Shown here piece after piece: positions 25,974-31,039 of a stretch of 64,000 nt of DNA (its first letter is position 1; each line of letters opens with the position of its first letter). Source of the stretch: Candidatus Tectomicrobia bacterium (GTDB lineage: Bacteria; UBA8248); NCBI GenBank assembly GCA_016192135.1, contig JACPUR010000017.1, positions 186,001 to 250,000 on the forward strand, written 5' to 3'. A program made the position numbers and the translations under genes. The notes beneath the pieces are model-generated. The model was not told the DNA's origin, ran no database searches, and was given only the letters and a program-made list of their open reading frames with translations.

Positions 25974-26897
25974 GTGAAGACGCCTCTGCAAAGGCCCAAC
26001 CCAAAGAAGATCAAGCCCCGCAAGAAGCCGGGGCGGGGGAGCGTGCCGGCCAAGGCGCGGCGCCTCGCGTCCTTGGCCGAGGCCCCGCCGGGCGAGCTGT
26101 TCTCCATCCTCGTCGGCTGCTGCCCCGACGCCCTCATGGCCGTCGATCAGCGCGGGTTCGTCCGCTACATGAATCCCGCCGCCGAGCGGCTCCTCCAGAG
26201 ATCCGCGGCGGACCTGATTGGCCAGCCCTTCTCCTTCCCGGTGGACAGCCTGCGCTCCCAGGAGGTGACGATCTCGAGCTCCGGCTCCGACTTCAAGGTG
26301 GCCGAGATCCTGACGGAGGAGGCCGCCTGGGGCGGCGAGAAGTTCTATGTGGTGAGCCTCCGCGACGTCACCGGCAGCGTGCGCATGCGGGAGCAGCTCC
26401 GCGCCCTGTCGGACGTCGATCCCCTCACCGGCCTGCTCAACCGCCGCGGCTTCTTCGACGCCGCCCAGCGCCAGCTCAGCCTCGCCCAGCGCACCAAGCG
26501 GGACATGACCTTCCTCTTCGTCGACCTGGACGGCCTCAAGAGCATCAATGACACCCACGGCCACATCGAGGGCGATCAGTGCCTCATCGAGGTCGCGAAC
26601 GTCCTGCGGAAGACCTTCCGCCAGCCCGACATCCTCAGCCGCTACGGCGGGGACGAGTTCGCCGTCCTCGCCATCGAGGCCAAGCAGCGCAGCTCGCAGA
26701 AGATCATCGAGCGTCTCGACAAGAACCTCCAGGCCCACAACGCCCGCAAGCGGCCCGACCGGCGCATCTCCTTCAGCCTCGGCCTCGCCCACTTCAATCC
26801 GGCCTCGCCCGCCTCGGTGGAGCAGCTCATCGAGAACGCCGACGAGCGGATGTACCAGAACAAGTACGCCAAGAAGCGCGCCCGCAGCCGCGCCTAG
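25974..26897 (+). CDS. PAS-GGDEF diguanylate cyclase
   Basis: 307 residues. A basic N-terminus (KKIKPRKKPGRG) precedes a PAS domain (about 40-130: CCPDALMAVDQRGFVRYMNPAAERLL). The GGDEF domain starts DPLTGLLNRRGFFD and holds FLFVDLDGLKSINDTHGH and the intact active site RYGGDEFAV (about residue 224). RQPD five residues before it is an RxxD inhibitory I-site. It should make c-di-GMP from GTP under PAS control and be product-inhibited. The GTG at 25974 is used; an upstream GTG at 25952 is possible. Its stop overlaps that of the convergent M20 gene. Confidence 0.9.
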   Translation: MKTPLQRPNPKKIKPRKKPGRGSVPAKARRLASLAEAPPGELFSILVGCCPDALMAVDQRGFVRYMNPAAERLLQRSAADLIGQPFSFPVDSLRSQEVTISSSGSDFKVAEILTEEAAWGGEKFYVVSLRDVTGSVRMREQLRALSDVDPLTGLLNRRGFFDAAQRQLSLAQRTKRDMTFLFVDLDGLKSINDTHGHIEGDQCLIEVANVLRKTFRQPDILSRYGGDEFAVLAIEAKQRSSQKIIERLDKNLQAHNARKRPDRRISFSLGLAHFNPASPASVEQLIENADERMYQNKYAKKRARSRA

Positions 26898-28165
26898 GCC
26901 TTCGCCCGCCGGTCCGCCAGCCTCAGCATCGCCGCCGCCAGCACCTCCGCCCCCCGGACGAGGTGCCGGAAGTGCGTGAACTCCTCCGGCGTGTGCGAGA
27001 GCCCCTTCACCGAGGGGATGAAGATCATCCCCATGGGGCACACCCGGGCCATGCGGCAGGCGTCGTGGACGCCCCCGCTGGCCAGGCTGATCCAGCGGCT
27101 CCCCGTCTCCTCCGCCGCGCGGGCGATGGCGCGGCGCACGGCGGGCGAGGTGGGGCAGGGCGGGAGGATGGACACCTCGGCGAGCCGCCCCGGCACCTTG
27201 CGCTCCCGCCGGATGCGCGCGAGTTCCCGGCGCATCCGCCCGATCATCCGCTTGAGGGCGGGCATCCCGCGGGCGCGGAGGTCGAAGGTGAGCGCCGCCT
27301 CCCCCGGGACGATGGAGATCCACCCCGGCCGCACGTCCACCTCGCCGAAGGTGAGGGTCACCCGCTGGCTCTCCGGCATCCGGCGCACCGCGCGCTCCAT
27401 CTCCACCATGAAGTCCGCCGCCGCCATCGCGGCGTCCCGGCGGTAGGGCATGGGCTGGCCCCCCGAGTGGGCCGTCACGCCCTCGAAAATCGCCTTCCCG
27501 CGCGTGTAGCCCACCACCCGGTCCACCACCCCGATGGGCGCCCTCTCCGCCTCGAGGACGGGCCCCTGCTCGATGTGGAGCTCGATGAAGGCCTTGAGCG
27601 CCTTCTTGGGCAGCACGCACGAGGCGGCGCGCGCCGGGTTCCCGCCCGAGGCCGCCACCGCCTCGTACATGGATTTGCCCGTGGGAGGGTGCACGGCCCG
27701 CCTCATCTCCCTGGGCCCCACCACCCCCGTCATCACGCTGCTCCCGAAGACCGTCATCCCGCCGGCCGACTCCTCCCCCACGAAGGCCACCACCTCGAGC
27801 GGGTGATCGTGGGGCGCGCCCGTCTCCGCGATGCGCCGCACCGCCTCGAGCGCGGCCAGCACGCCCGCCGGGCCGTCGAAGCGCCCGCCCGGGTTCTGGC
27901 TGTCGAGATGCGAGCCCGCCATGACGGCCGGGAGGCCTTTCGCCCGGCCCTCCCTGCGGCCGATGAGGTTGCCCACCGCGTCCACCCGCGTCCTGAGCCC
28001 CGCCTCCTCCATCCAGCGGCGCACCAGGTCCCGCGCGCGGTTGTACTCGGGGGTGAGGGCGATGCGGACGAGGCCCGTCTCGCCGAAGCGCCCGATCCGG
28101 GCCTGGGCGTCGAACTCGCGCTGCATCCGGGCGCGGTTCGCCCGGAGGGGGGATGAGGCGGCCAT
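26894..28165 (-). CDS. M20-family Zn amidohydrolase (hydantoinase/carbamoylase type)
   Basis: 423 residues. AGSHLDSQNPGGRFDGPAGV supplies the first metal His and Asp, FVGEESAG the catalytic and bridging Glu residues, IELHIEQGPVLEAE and VTAHSGGQPMPYRRDA the dimerisation-domain motifs, and SGGVHDACRMA the late His. This pattern is that of N-carbamoyl-amino-acid hydrolases, allantoate amidohydrolases and ureidoglycolate relatives. It cleaves an amide or ureido bond in the cytosol; exact substrate unknown. The start at 28165 fits the family N-terminus. Confidence 0.9.
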   Translation of the reverse strand: MAASSPLRANRARMQREFDAQARIGRFGETGLVRIALTPEYNRARDLVRRWMEEAGLRTRVDAVGNLIGRREGRAKGLPAVMAGSHLDSQNPGGRFDGPAGVLAALEAVRRIAETGAPHDHPLEVVAFVGEESAGGMTVFGSSVMTGVVGPREMRRAVHPPTGKSMYEAVAASGGNPARAASCVLPKKALKAFIELHIEQGPVLEAERAPIGVVDRVVGYTRGKAIFEGVTAHSGGQPMPYRRDAAMAAADFMVEMERAVRRMPESQRVTLTFGEVDVRPGWISIVPGEAALTFDLRARGMPALKRMIGRMRRELARIRRERKVPGRLAEVSILPPCPTSPAVRRAIARAAEETGSRWISLASGGVHDACRMARVCPMGMIFIPSVKGLSHTPEEFTHFRHLVRGAEVLAAAMLRLADRRAKA

Positions 28166-28253
28166 GGGGTCTCCTGGGGAGGGTAGGAATGAAGTCTGAA
28201 CGGGCGTTCGGGGCGCGGGCCGAACATCGTGCGCCCATTCCGGCCGGACGATT

Positions 28254-28339
28254 CTCCCTCCCCCTCCGGGGGAGGGTTGGGGTGGGGGAAGACCACCGGC
28301 GGGATTCCCTCCCCCTGCCCCCTCCCGGAGGGAGGGGGG
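28254..28339. repeat. Paired CTCCC/GGGAG hairpin repeat
   Basis: Two G/C-rich hairpins in opposite orientation (28254-28287, tail GGGTTGGGGTGGGGG; 28307-28339). It belongs to the CTCTCCC...GGGAGAG family found at 29272, 38001, 40696, 59323 and 60321, and fills most of the gap between the M20 and glutaredoxin-DinB genes. Confidence 0.6.
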
Positions 28340-28381
28340 AAAGCGAATCCTCCTCGGAAGCACTCCGCGGCCGGATCCCCC

Positions 28382-29134
28382 TTAGAACAAATCCTCCGGC
28401 ACCGAGACCTCGGCGTAGTCCCCGGGGCGGAGCGGGCGGTCGGGCGCGATCCCCAAGAGGCCAAAGTAGTGGTAGGTCTGGCGCAGGTGCTGCACCGCGT
28501 GGCCCAGGGCCATCTCCATCAGGAGATGCACCGTGATCGGGCCCATGTAGCTCTCGACCCGCCGGGCGAGCCTCTCAGGGGTGCGGCCCAGGTAGTCCTC
28601 CAGCCTGGCCTCCATCATGTCCCCGTAGGCGCAGATCTCCTCCGCCGTCCGGTAGCCCTCCGCCACGGTCTCGTAGCGGCGCACCATCTCCTCGGTGTAG
28701 CGGCCCGTCTCCTCCGCCTCGATGCACAGCGCGGGGCGCTCGAAGATGTGCCAGGTGAGCTGGCGCAGGGTGCGCTTGCGCCCGGGCGACACCCAGTCGA
28801 GCTTCTCCTGGGGGATCTGGCGCACCGCCCGCCGCACCGCCTCGAACACGAGCCGGTAGAGGGCGAGCATCCGCTCCGCCGGGAGGGGGCCCCGCTTGGA
28901 CTCCCCGATCCCGAAGGCGGCCTTCAGCTCCTCGATGTTGAAGCCCACCACCACCTTGTCCCCCCGCACCGAGACGGGCAGGGCCTTGATGCCTATCGCC
29001 CTAAGCTCCGCCTGGGCCTCGGGGTCGTTCGAGCAGTCGCGGTTCACGACCGGCACCCCGTTCGACGAGAGGAACTCCCTCGTGCACGCGCAGGTGTATC
29101 AGCCGTGGCGGGTGTAGACCTTGACGGGCTCCAT
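28382..29134 (-). CDS. Glutaredoxin-DinB fusion with in-frame TGA at the active-site Cys (candidate selenoprotein)
   Basis: The ATG at 29134 follows GGGAGG with ideal spacing. Twelve codons in, TGA (29099-29101) lies in the context KVYTRHG-TGA-YTC, where a glutaredoxin has C-x-x-C. After it come the remaining glutaredoxin features (FLSSNGVPVVNRDCSNDP; IKALPVSV; VVGF). From about residue 95 there is a DinB-like four-helix domain with His residues in LTWHIFE and GHAVQHLRQ that could bind metal. Read with Sec the protein has 250 residues. Without readthrough the first start is an unsupported GTG at 29056 that would remove the active site. I infer selenocysteine; a nonsense mutation is the alternative. 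Confidence 0.72.
29065..29083 (-). promoter_or_regulatory. Predicted bacterial SECIS hairpin
   Basis: In the mRNA, ACGAGGG (29083-29077) pairs with CUCUCGU (29071-29065) in seven base pairs including one G-U, with loop AGUUC. The stem begins 15 nt after the UGA and the loop 22 nt after its last base, with G as the second loop base. These match the bacterial SECIS rules as I know them (loop 16-37 nt away, G among the first two loop bases). Confidence 0.6.
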
Positions 29135-29271
29135 GGCGGGCCTCCCGTGGCGGCGGTGGGATGAGCGTCTGTCCCTTCGGTTTAGCCGATCCTCTCCGCG
29201 TTGTCACCCGGGCGCCGGGTGGGTTTGCCTCCAGTGGATGGGTGGACTTTCGAGCAATCGCGCCCTTCATT

Positions 29272-29387
29272 CCCTCACCCCCATCCCCTCTCCCAAGGGG
29301 AGAGGGGCGCCGTGGCGACAAGGATTCGGCTCCAGATGAGCGGGGACCGCACCTCCCTCTCCCTATGGGAGAGGGCCGGGGTGAGGG
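29272..29387. repeat. Paired CTCTCCC/GGGAGAG hairpin repeat, tails outward
   Basis: Copy 1 (29272-29307) reads CCCTCACCCCCAT then CCCCTCTCCC-AA-GGGGAGAGGGG. Copy 2 (29353-29387) is inverted, CCCTCTCCC-TAT-GGGAGAGGG then CCGGGGTGAGGG. Together they form a roughly 116-base inverted composite in the 375-base gap between the glutaredoxin-DinB and permease starts. The gap also has a TATATT at 29470-29475 that could be a -10 for the permease. Confidence 0.65.
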
Positions 29388-29509
29388 AGGTGCCAACGGG
29401 GAGCCATGAGAGCCGCTTGGCTCATGCACCTGACTCATCTTCCCGCTTCCCCGCCGGCGGGTTCTCGCCTATATTCGGGGAACTCCCCCGCCCGCGGAGC
29501 CCAGGCCCC

Positions 29510-31039
29510 GTGCCCGCGCGCCCGCCCTGGATCGCCAAGGGCGACATCGACGGCTTCTTCGGCCTGTGGATGGACAACCTCGTCCAGCTCCTCCTGATCG
29601 CCTCGCTCTTGAAGGGCGTCTTGGGCTTCCCGGACGCCCTCGTCTTCGGCCGGGTGCTGCCCGGCGCGGCGCTCAGCATCCTCCTCGGCAACCTCTTCTA
29701 CGCCTGGCAGGCCCGGCGGCTGGCGCTGCGCGAGAGGAGAGAGGACGCCTGCGCGCTCCCCTACGGCATCAACACGGTGAGCCTCTTCGCCTTCGTCTTC
29801 TTCATCATGCTCCCGGTGAAGCTCCAGACCGGGGACCCCGAGGCCGCCTGGCGCGCCGGGCTCGCCGCCTGCTTCATCAGCGGGGTCATCGAGACGGCGG
29901 GCTCCCTGGCCGGGGGCTGGGTGCGGCGGGTGACCCCGCGCGCGGCGCTGCTCTCGGCCCTGGCCGGGATCGCCCTGACCTTCATCTCGATGGACTTCGC
30001 CTTCCGCATCTGGGAGAAGCCCCTCGTGGCCATGCTGCCGCTCGGGGTCATCCTCCTCCACTACTTCGGGGGCGCCCGCTTCCCGGGAGGGCTCCCCGGG
30101 GGGCTGGTGGCCGTGGCGGCGGGGACCCTCCTCTCCGCCCTCGTGTACGGCCTCCCGGAGGTCCCGGCCCCGGCCGGGCTCGCGATGCCCGGGCTCTGGC
30201 TGGGGCCCCTCTTCTCGGCCCTGACCGGCCCCCTGGCCTGGGGCCACCTCGCCGTCTCCCTCCCCATGGGGCTGATGACCCTCGTCGGGAGCCTGATGAA
30301 CCTCGAGAGCGCCGAGGCGGCCGGGGACCGCTACCCGACGCGGAGCTCCCTCGCCGTGAACGGGGCGGGCTCCCTCGCGGCGGCCCTCCTGGGGAGCTGC
30401 TTCCCGACCACCCTCTACATCGGCCACCCGGGCTGGAAGGCCCTGGGCGCGCGCTCGGCCTACAGCGCGCTGAACGGCCTGGCCATCACCTTGCTCGTCC
30501 TGACCGGCTCCCTGGCCGCCCTGGCCCGGCTCGTGCCCGAGGAGGCCGTGATCGCCATCCTCCTCTGGATCGGTCTCGTCATGGTGGCCCAGGCCTTCGA
30601 GGCGGTCCCAAGCCGCCACGCCCCCGCCGTGGCGCTGGGCTTCGTGCCCTCGGTGGCCGCCTGGGGGCTCCTGATGGTGCAGGGGGCGCTCCGCGCCACC
30701 GGGAGCGATCTCCAGAAGGCGGGGGAGGCCGCCTTCGCCGCTGCGGGGATGCACCTCCCGGGCATGATCGCCCTCGAGCGCGGCTTCCTCTTCTCCTCCA
30801 TGATCCTGGCCGCCCTGGCCGCCGCCTTGATCGACGGGGAGCGCCGCCGGGCCGCGGGCTGGGCCCTGGCCGGGGCGGTCCTGAGCTGGTTCGGGGTCAT
30901 CCACGCCTACGCCCTCACCCCCGGCGGGCCCGTGAGCCCCTTCGGCTGGGGCCGGGCCCCGGGCCCGGCGCTCGGCTACCTCGCCATGGCGGCGGTTTTT
31001 CTCCTGGCGGGGAGGGGCAGGGAAAGGAAGCCGTCGTAA
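29510..31039 (+). CDS. NCS2/AGZA-like multi-pass permease
   Basis: 509 residues with about 12-13 membrane helices. GLWMDNLVQLLLIASLLKGVLGFP opens the protein, and YGINTVSLFAFVFFIMLPV, VGSLMNLESAEAAGDRYP and GSCFPTTLYIGHPGWKALGARSAYSALNG resemble the xanthine/uracil/hypoxanthine permease superfamily. The GTG at 29510 was chosen because the protein-like sequence starts there, with GGAG 11 bases upstream; this start is uncertain. Substrate probably a nucleobase-like compound (inference). Confidence 0.78.
   Translation: MPARPPWIAKGDIDGFFGLWMDNLVQLLLIASLLKGVLGFPDALVFGRVLPGAALSILLGNLFYAWQARRLALRERREDACALPYGINTVSLFAFVFFIMLPVKLQTGDPEAAWRAGLAACFISGVIETAGSLAGGWVRRVTPRAALLSALAGIALTFISMDFAFRIWEKPLVAMLPLGVILLHYFGGARFPGGLPGGLVAVAAGTLLSALVYGLPEVPAPAGLAMPGLWLGPLFSALTGPLAWGHLAVSLPMGLMTLVGSLMNLESAEAAGDRYPTRSSLAVNGAGSLAAALLGSCFPTTLYIGHPGWKALGARSAYSALNGLAITLLVLTGSLAALARLVPEEAVIAILLWIGLVMVAQAFEAVPSRHAPAVALGFVPSVAAWGLLMVQGALRATGSDLQKAGEAAFAAAGMHLPGMIALERGFLFSSMILAALAAALIDGERRRAAGWALAGAVLSWFGVIHAYALTPGGPVSPFGWGRAPGPALGYLAMAAVFLLAGRGRERKPS

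Follow-up and report, generated by a model that had tools for sequence, protein, structure and literature searches.

A predicted selenoprotein family that joins a selenocysteine glutaredoxin to a DinB domain

An in-frame TGA in a glutaredoxin gene

Does a TGA codon near the start of a glutaredoxin-like gene end translation, or does it encode selenocysteine (Sec)? The question is raised by a gene, here called grx-dinB, at 28382..29134 on the minus strand of the window, by which we mean the whole 64,000-nucleotide stretch of DNA analyzed. With TGA translated as Sec (U), the frame comprises 250 codons and a TAA, running from an ATG at 29134-29132 to the TAA at 28384-28382 with a single internal TGA, and orthologues have a matching layout. 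Direct reading places a ribosome-binding site, GGGAGG, at 29141..29146 on the same strand, 6 nt before the ATG. The TGA is codon 12 (29099..29101, minus strand), and 238 open codons lie between it and the TAA. The original prediction had described the ribosome-binding site, the ATG at 29134, a TGA after 11 codons and the open codons beyond it, and its coordinates were exact on re-reading.

It had also assigned the TGA to the first Cys of a glutaredoxin C-x-x-C motif in the context RHG-TGA-YTC, and we confirm this placement. Redoxin sequence on both sides of the TGA forms one in-frame glutaredoxin domain of the NrdH/YruB/Uxx-star-like kind (residues 4-56; 28967..29125, minus strand), and the Pfam match spans the TGA (PF00462, 1.2e-9; 38.6 bits against a gathering score of 22.9). 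Codon 12 is the first position of the UxxC motif; in the context RHG-U-YTC this motif reads U-Y-T-C, and its second Cys is Cys15. When the codons after the TGA were compared with a gene from the same genus, 38 had changed synonymously and 33 nonsynonymously, with 48 changes at third, 19 at first and 20 at second codon positions. By this substitution pattern, the sequence 3′ of the TGA is evolving as coding sequence.

Conservation of the TGA and cysteine homologues

The same TGA was found in about 70 genomes (about 72) from at least three distant lineages. Full-length orthologues with 54-86% identity and a TGA at codon 12 are present on seven GTDB contigs, mostly from Tectomicrobia and Nitrospinota MAGs, and 17 of the 18 family genomes also have one. 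A profile built from 15 sequences was used to search for the fusion in other lineages. Within the class of G112 it recovered the fusion in all five genomes, and within the G102 phylum it did so in 51 of 95, with a single match there covering the DinB part only. Each match that contains the redoxin carries one TGA, and one truncated match has a TAG in addition. Codon-by-codon reading gave G-TGA-x-x-C in 53/53 loci, with 234-243 codons following and Cys in none, and no Cys form was seen in any of the genomes searched by profile (the family, the class of G112 and the phylum of G102). Separately assembled genomes of the same genus and the same family likewise read TGA, and neither TGC nor TGT, at the codon corresponding to 29099-29101. 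Because all full-length relatives from Sec-using lineages share the TGA at this column, and because the sequence after it shows coding-type evolution, we consider that it is not there by chance.

A different gene model would start translation at an internal GTG at 29056, yielding a DinB protein that retains half of the redoxin domain and making the upstream ATG and TGA irrelevant. For this gene, mechanical ORF calling gives no more than the 224-residue ORF from this GTG, and automatic annotation might call it in the same way. This model is nevertheless very improbable, since the sequence MEPVKVYTRHG and the position of the start codon are conserved in orthologues, relatives have other codons, ATC or ATT for example, in place of the GTG, and a protein begun there would lack the first strand and the active site of an otherwise complete domain.

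A tblastn search against plasmids turned up full-length homologues in Variovorax, Caballeronia and Roseomonas, five in all, with 24-29% identity. Each of the five carries the sequence GCSSC, which puts Cys in the Sec column, so the original proposal to ask whether this column is Cys in relatives has a positive answer among full-length proteobacterial proteins. Where annotation is present, these proteins are called glutaredoxin domain-containing or DinB family proteins. The Cys-type proteins of Pseudomonadota (WP_162571355.1, WP_207446294.1 and WP_244817409.1) have the same two domains and share the conserved residues with the window protein; they differ in carrying Cys for Sec, in lacking the SECIS-type hairpin described below, and in being annotated by domain only. 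In a maximum-likelihood tree, which is unrooted and has several long branches, the Cys forms make up one group (support 100/97) whose branch lies between two Sec groups, an arrangement that does not fix the direction of change.

The SECIS-type hairpin and the selenocysteine machinery

A SECIS-type hairpin, ACGAGGG-AGUUC-CUCUCGU, lies inside the coding sequence at 29065..29083 on the minus strand, and is supported by folding, compensatory changes and synonymous-codon shuffles. Its 7-bp stem begins 15 nt after the UGA, its 5-nt loop, AGUUC (29076-29072), lies 22 nt downstream of the UGA and has G as its second nucleotide, and its folding energy is -11.6 kcal/mol. The published bSECIS model asks for a loop of 3-9 nt, a stem of 4-16 bp, G within the first two nucleotides of the loop, a spacing of 16-37 nt and an energy of at most -7.5 kcal/mol (PMC13188914), and the window hairpin agrees with these rules for loop, stem, spacing and energy.

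The register of the hairpin, from 15 nt after the UGA, is common to nearly all sequences. Across 22 sequences, hand-picked from 45 distinct ones with the non-fitting L042 and L057 left out, 94% of cells pair, compared with 39-60% when the partner strand is slid, and both-sided changes number 11, whereas shuffling gave a mean of 3.9 (0/500 shuffles). Folding energy was below that of synonymous recodings (p<=0.05) in 34 of 45 sequences, with a median z of -2.2, a count to which related sequences contribute non-independently. No advantage over recoded controls was seen for the hairpins of L042, L057 and L076; L042 and L057 (in G112 and G250) are Sec forms without a well-folding family hairpin and may use a different SECIS shape. 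On folding, the family hairpin did not form in the Cys genes.

The genome that carries the window (3.92 Mb, 96.8% complete) encodes one tRNA-Sec, which scores 74.8 bits, above the Rfam cut-off, and has the anticodon TCA by ARAGORN. SelB (389 bits) is above its cut-off, and selA (SelA, 540 bits) lies directly before selB on one contig. The absence of selB and selC from the genome, which would have spoken against Sec, is thus not what we found. The original prediction had listed selA, selB, selC and selD as genes to look for, and the first three are present; no selD, on the other hand, was detected in the assembly, which is 96.8% complete. The best SelD match (contig C13, 83.5 bits) looks ThiL-like and was not counted. 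As SelD is above the cut-off in 14 of 18 family genomes, each time with one in-frame TGA and including both same-genus genomes, a gap in the assembly probably accounts for the missing selD. SelB passes its cut-off in most family genomes and also in G102 and G112 outside the family; it did not reach the cut-off in the fragmented same-genus assemblies G001 and G002 or in G016.

These results bear on two further readings of the TGA. If it were a real stop, the gene would be a pseudogene or the product of a sequence error, and an early stop after 11 codons in a single assembled genome would indeed look the same. This reading has almost nothing left to recommend it: the same TGA recurs in independent assemblies of distant lineages, the frame downstream is under coding constraint, homologues that do not use Sec have Cys at this position, and a SECIS hairpin is present. 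The other reading, in which UGA has been reassigned or readthrough inserts a different amino acid such as Trp, is just as hard to sustain, for although the frame is open whatever TGA encodes, the homologous column is Cys and never Trp, Sec machinery and a hairpin are present, and TGA is the true stop of grx-dinB in more than half of the distant-group loci, which argues against global reassignment of UGA. In L031 and L035, TGA serves as both the Sec codon and the gene's own stop, providing a natural within-gene control for SECIS dependence.

Conservation of the TGA, Cys homologues, the hairpin and coding constraint together led us to reject a pseudogene, a sequencing error, code reassignment and an internal start. 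The same TGA conservation, Cys homologues and hairpin support the earlier judgment that a random stop is less likely here than an exchange of Cys for Sec. We conclude, from the sequence data, that grx-dinB is a real selenoprotein family, and that the window gene almost certainly encodes a 250-residue selenoprotein in which UGA codon 12 is read as Sec. Decoding would be carried out by SelB and tRNA-Sec and directed by the hairpin 15 nt downstream, a step for which sequence support is strong.

Domain architecture and relation to known families

The C-terminal part of the protein matches a DinB_2 four-helix domain (residues 96-219; 28478..28849, minus strand; PF12867, 1.9e-8, 35.3 bits against a gathering score of 24.8), an assignment also supported by Foldseek and by His conservation. 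At the N terminus, the NCBIfam redoxin models match below their cut-offs only, namely YruB-type TIGR02196 (44.8 bits), Uxx-star NF041212 (41.4 bits) and NrdH TIGR02194. An AlphaFold2 model made with 15 sequences has a mean pLDDT of 91.9 and a pTM of 0.86, and both domains fold well. With Foldseek, the N-terminal part retrieved NrdH and cGrx1, and the C-terminal part retrieved the DinB/YfiT proteins DR0053 (TM 0.82 by target), YjoA and mycothiol S-transferase.

Across 58 proteins, the redoxin residues G11, U/C12, C15 and P53 are kept. In the DinB part His129 and His216 are invariant, His212 is present in 57/58, and R119, R121, Q215 and R218 are nearly always kept. Among the S-transferases of B. 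subtilis, full conservation is limited to three histidines, and the enzymes depend on metal for activity; these histidines are the likely metal site of the bacillithiol transferases (PMC5815605). Judged by residue conservation, the predicted three-histidine metal site of the DinB domain is retained in the family.

A close precedent for the redoxin half is the selenoprotein Grx (PF00462, UxxC; Clostridium oremlandii Grx1; PMC13188914, Table 1 and its ref. 85), which has the same redoxin fold with Sec first in UxxC near the N terminus. Structures of C. oremlandii cGrx1, 7c10 and 7c12, are the best PDB sequence matches to the window protein; however, the known selenoprotein Grx is single-domain, whereas the window protein adds a C-terminal DinB domain. 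The Uxx-star (seleno)proteins (NF041212, NF041211 and NF047338) and the HUGP/GUXX-star fusion (NF045501) belong to the same redoxin branch and also have Sec first in the motif. The window protein scores 41, 26 and 24 bits with the three Uxx-star models, below their cut-offs of 66, 100 and 97, and 24 bits with NF045501, for which the cut-off is 325; the Uxx-star models cover about 70 positions (236 for NF045501) and have no match in its DinB part. Outside the window, the genome has a stand-alone glutaredoxin-like relative (contig C19, 35138-35386, minus strand) that is 38% identical to the redoxin half, contains two in-frame TGA codons and is probably an ordinary Uxx-star-type selenoprotein.

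The DinB/YfiT S-transferase-like superfamily (BstA-H, mycothiol S-transferase and DR0053) has the four-helix fold and three conserved histidines seen here, but these named members lack the redoxin domain that the window protein has. For other two-domain members of the superfamily, it has been proposed that the co-substrate is determined by the second domain (PMC5815605). Four genomes (G441, G443, G444 and G445; for example G443, contig C6, 15183-15680) have DinB-only paralogues that match query residues 83-249 without a stop and occur beside the Sec fusion.

The 119 selenoprotein families listed in a 2026 review do not include a Sec glutaredoxin-DinB protein, nor does any NCBIfam model cover one. 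An earlier listing may exist in Deng et al. 2026, who are cited as reporting 63 selenoprotein genes in one Methylomirabilota MAG (as cited in PMC13188914). In the literature searched, which covers the relevant papers in part, the only work linking a selenoprotein with DinB was an unrelated E. coli mercury study. The earlier suggestion that this is not a known selenoprotein family appears to stand for the Sec form, given its absence from the 119-family table, and has to be narrowed for the glutaredoxin-DinB architecture, which was already known. The window gene appears to be a Sec variant of this known but uncharacterized architecture, with the Sec form alone being new.

Gene neighborhood and possible function

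Immediately downstream on the same strand is a gene for an M20 hydantoinase/carbamoylase-family amidase (26894..28363, minus strand, start codon uncertain; TIGR01879, 343 bits). This gene (cluster c3) occurs in seven compared loci and adjoins the fusion in the window, L109-L112 and L116; it is a neighbor kept in several genera of the family. It is not kept in the other lineages compared, so the adjacency is weak evidence for function, and the comparison of neighbors across lineages gave no partner common to all. Genes for PDH E1 and E2 also lie near grx-dinB in the window. The divergent neighbor (29201-31039, plus strand) encodes a long hydrophobic protein that is a conserved neighbor in the family and has no Pfam match at 1e-5. 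Imperfect inverted repeats of the CCCTCTCCC/GGGAGAGGG type flank the gene (28249-28345 and 29286-29393) and resemble a dispersed intergenic repeat family.

With regard to thiol pathways, BshC (bacillithiol synthesis) was found in 0/18 family genomes, and GCS2 (glutathione synthesis) in only one other genus among the same 18, with none in the window genus. Because genes for glutathione and bacillithiol synthesis were not detected in the genus, any thiol partner could be an unknown low-molecular-weight thiol.

One reading of the selenoprotein, which has a modest chance of being correct, is that its DinB part only binds a metal or a partner, making the protein a redox or metal sensor or a helper of the neighboring metal-dependent amidase. 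In its favor, the M20 carbamoylase-family gene is adjacent and co-directional in several genera, the Cys form of Roseomonas lies among isochorismatase, AtzG-like and amidase genes, and the BshC and GCS2 searches found no known low-molecular-weight thiol pathway in the genus. However, the amidase neighbor was not seen in the other phylum or at the Variovorax and Caballeronia loci, and the full metal triad and S-transferase fold are retained.

In the mechanism that we consider most likely, though just as tentatively, the protein could be a self-contained thiol transferase or dethiolase for stress or detoxification, the coupling to selenol redox being suggested by the domains. The N-terminal domain, of glutaredoxin/NrdH-type fold, would supply the Sec-x-x-Cys active site, and the C-terminal domain a DinB/YfiT (S-transferase-like) four-helix bundle with a three-histidine metal site. 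The selenol might attack a substrate held by the metal site of the DinB domain, which could be a disulfide, a thiol adduct or an electrophile; Cys15 might then resolve the selenenyl-sulfide, and an outside reductase could recycle the redoxin arm. At its most specific, and equally tentative, this proposal would make grx-dinB the first selenoprotein of the DinB/S-transferase-like superfamily, a single-chain selenium-dependent thiol transferase or dethiolase in which a tethered selenol arm exchanges thiol adducts with the DinB metal site.

The predicted family is widespread and strongly conserved, and simple ORF calling truncates it to a DinB protein starting at an internal GTG. It would place Sec beside a metal domain of the thiol-transferase type, and its natural Sec/Cys pairs of the full two-domain protein would be a good system in which to study the benefit of selenium. 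Should the DinB half prove to be an S-transferase, the family may point to small-thiol chemistry in little-known lineages in which glutathione and bacillithiol synthesis have not been detected.
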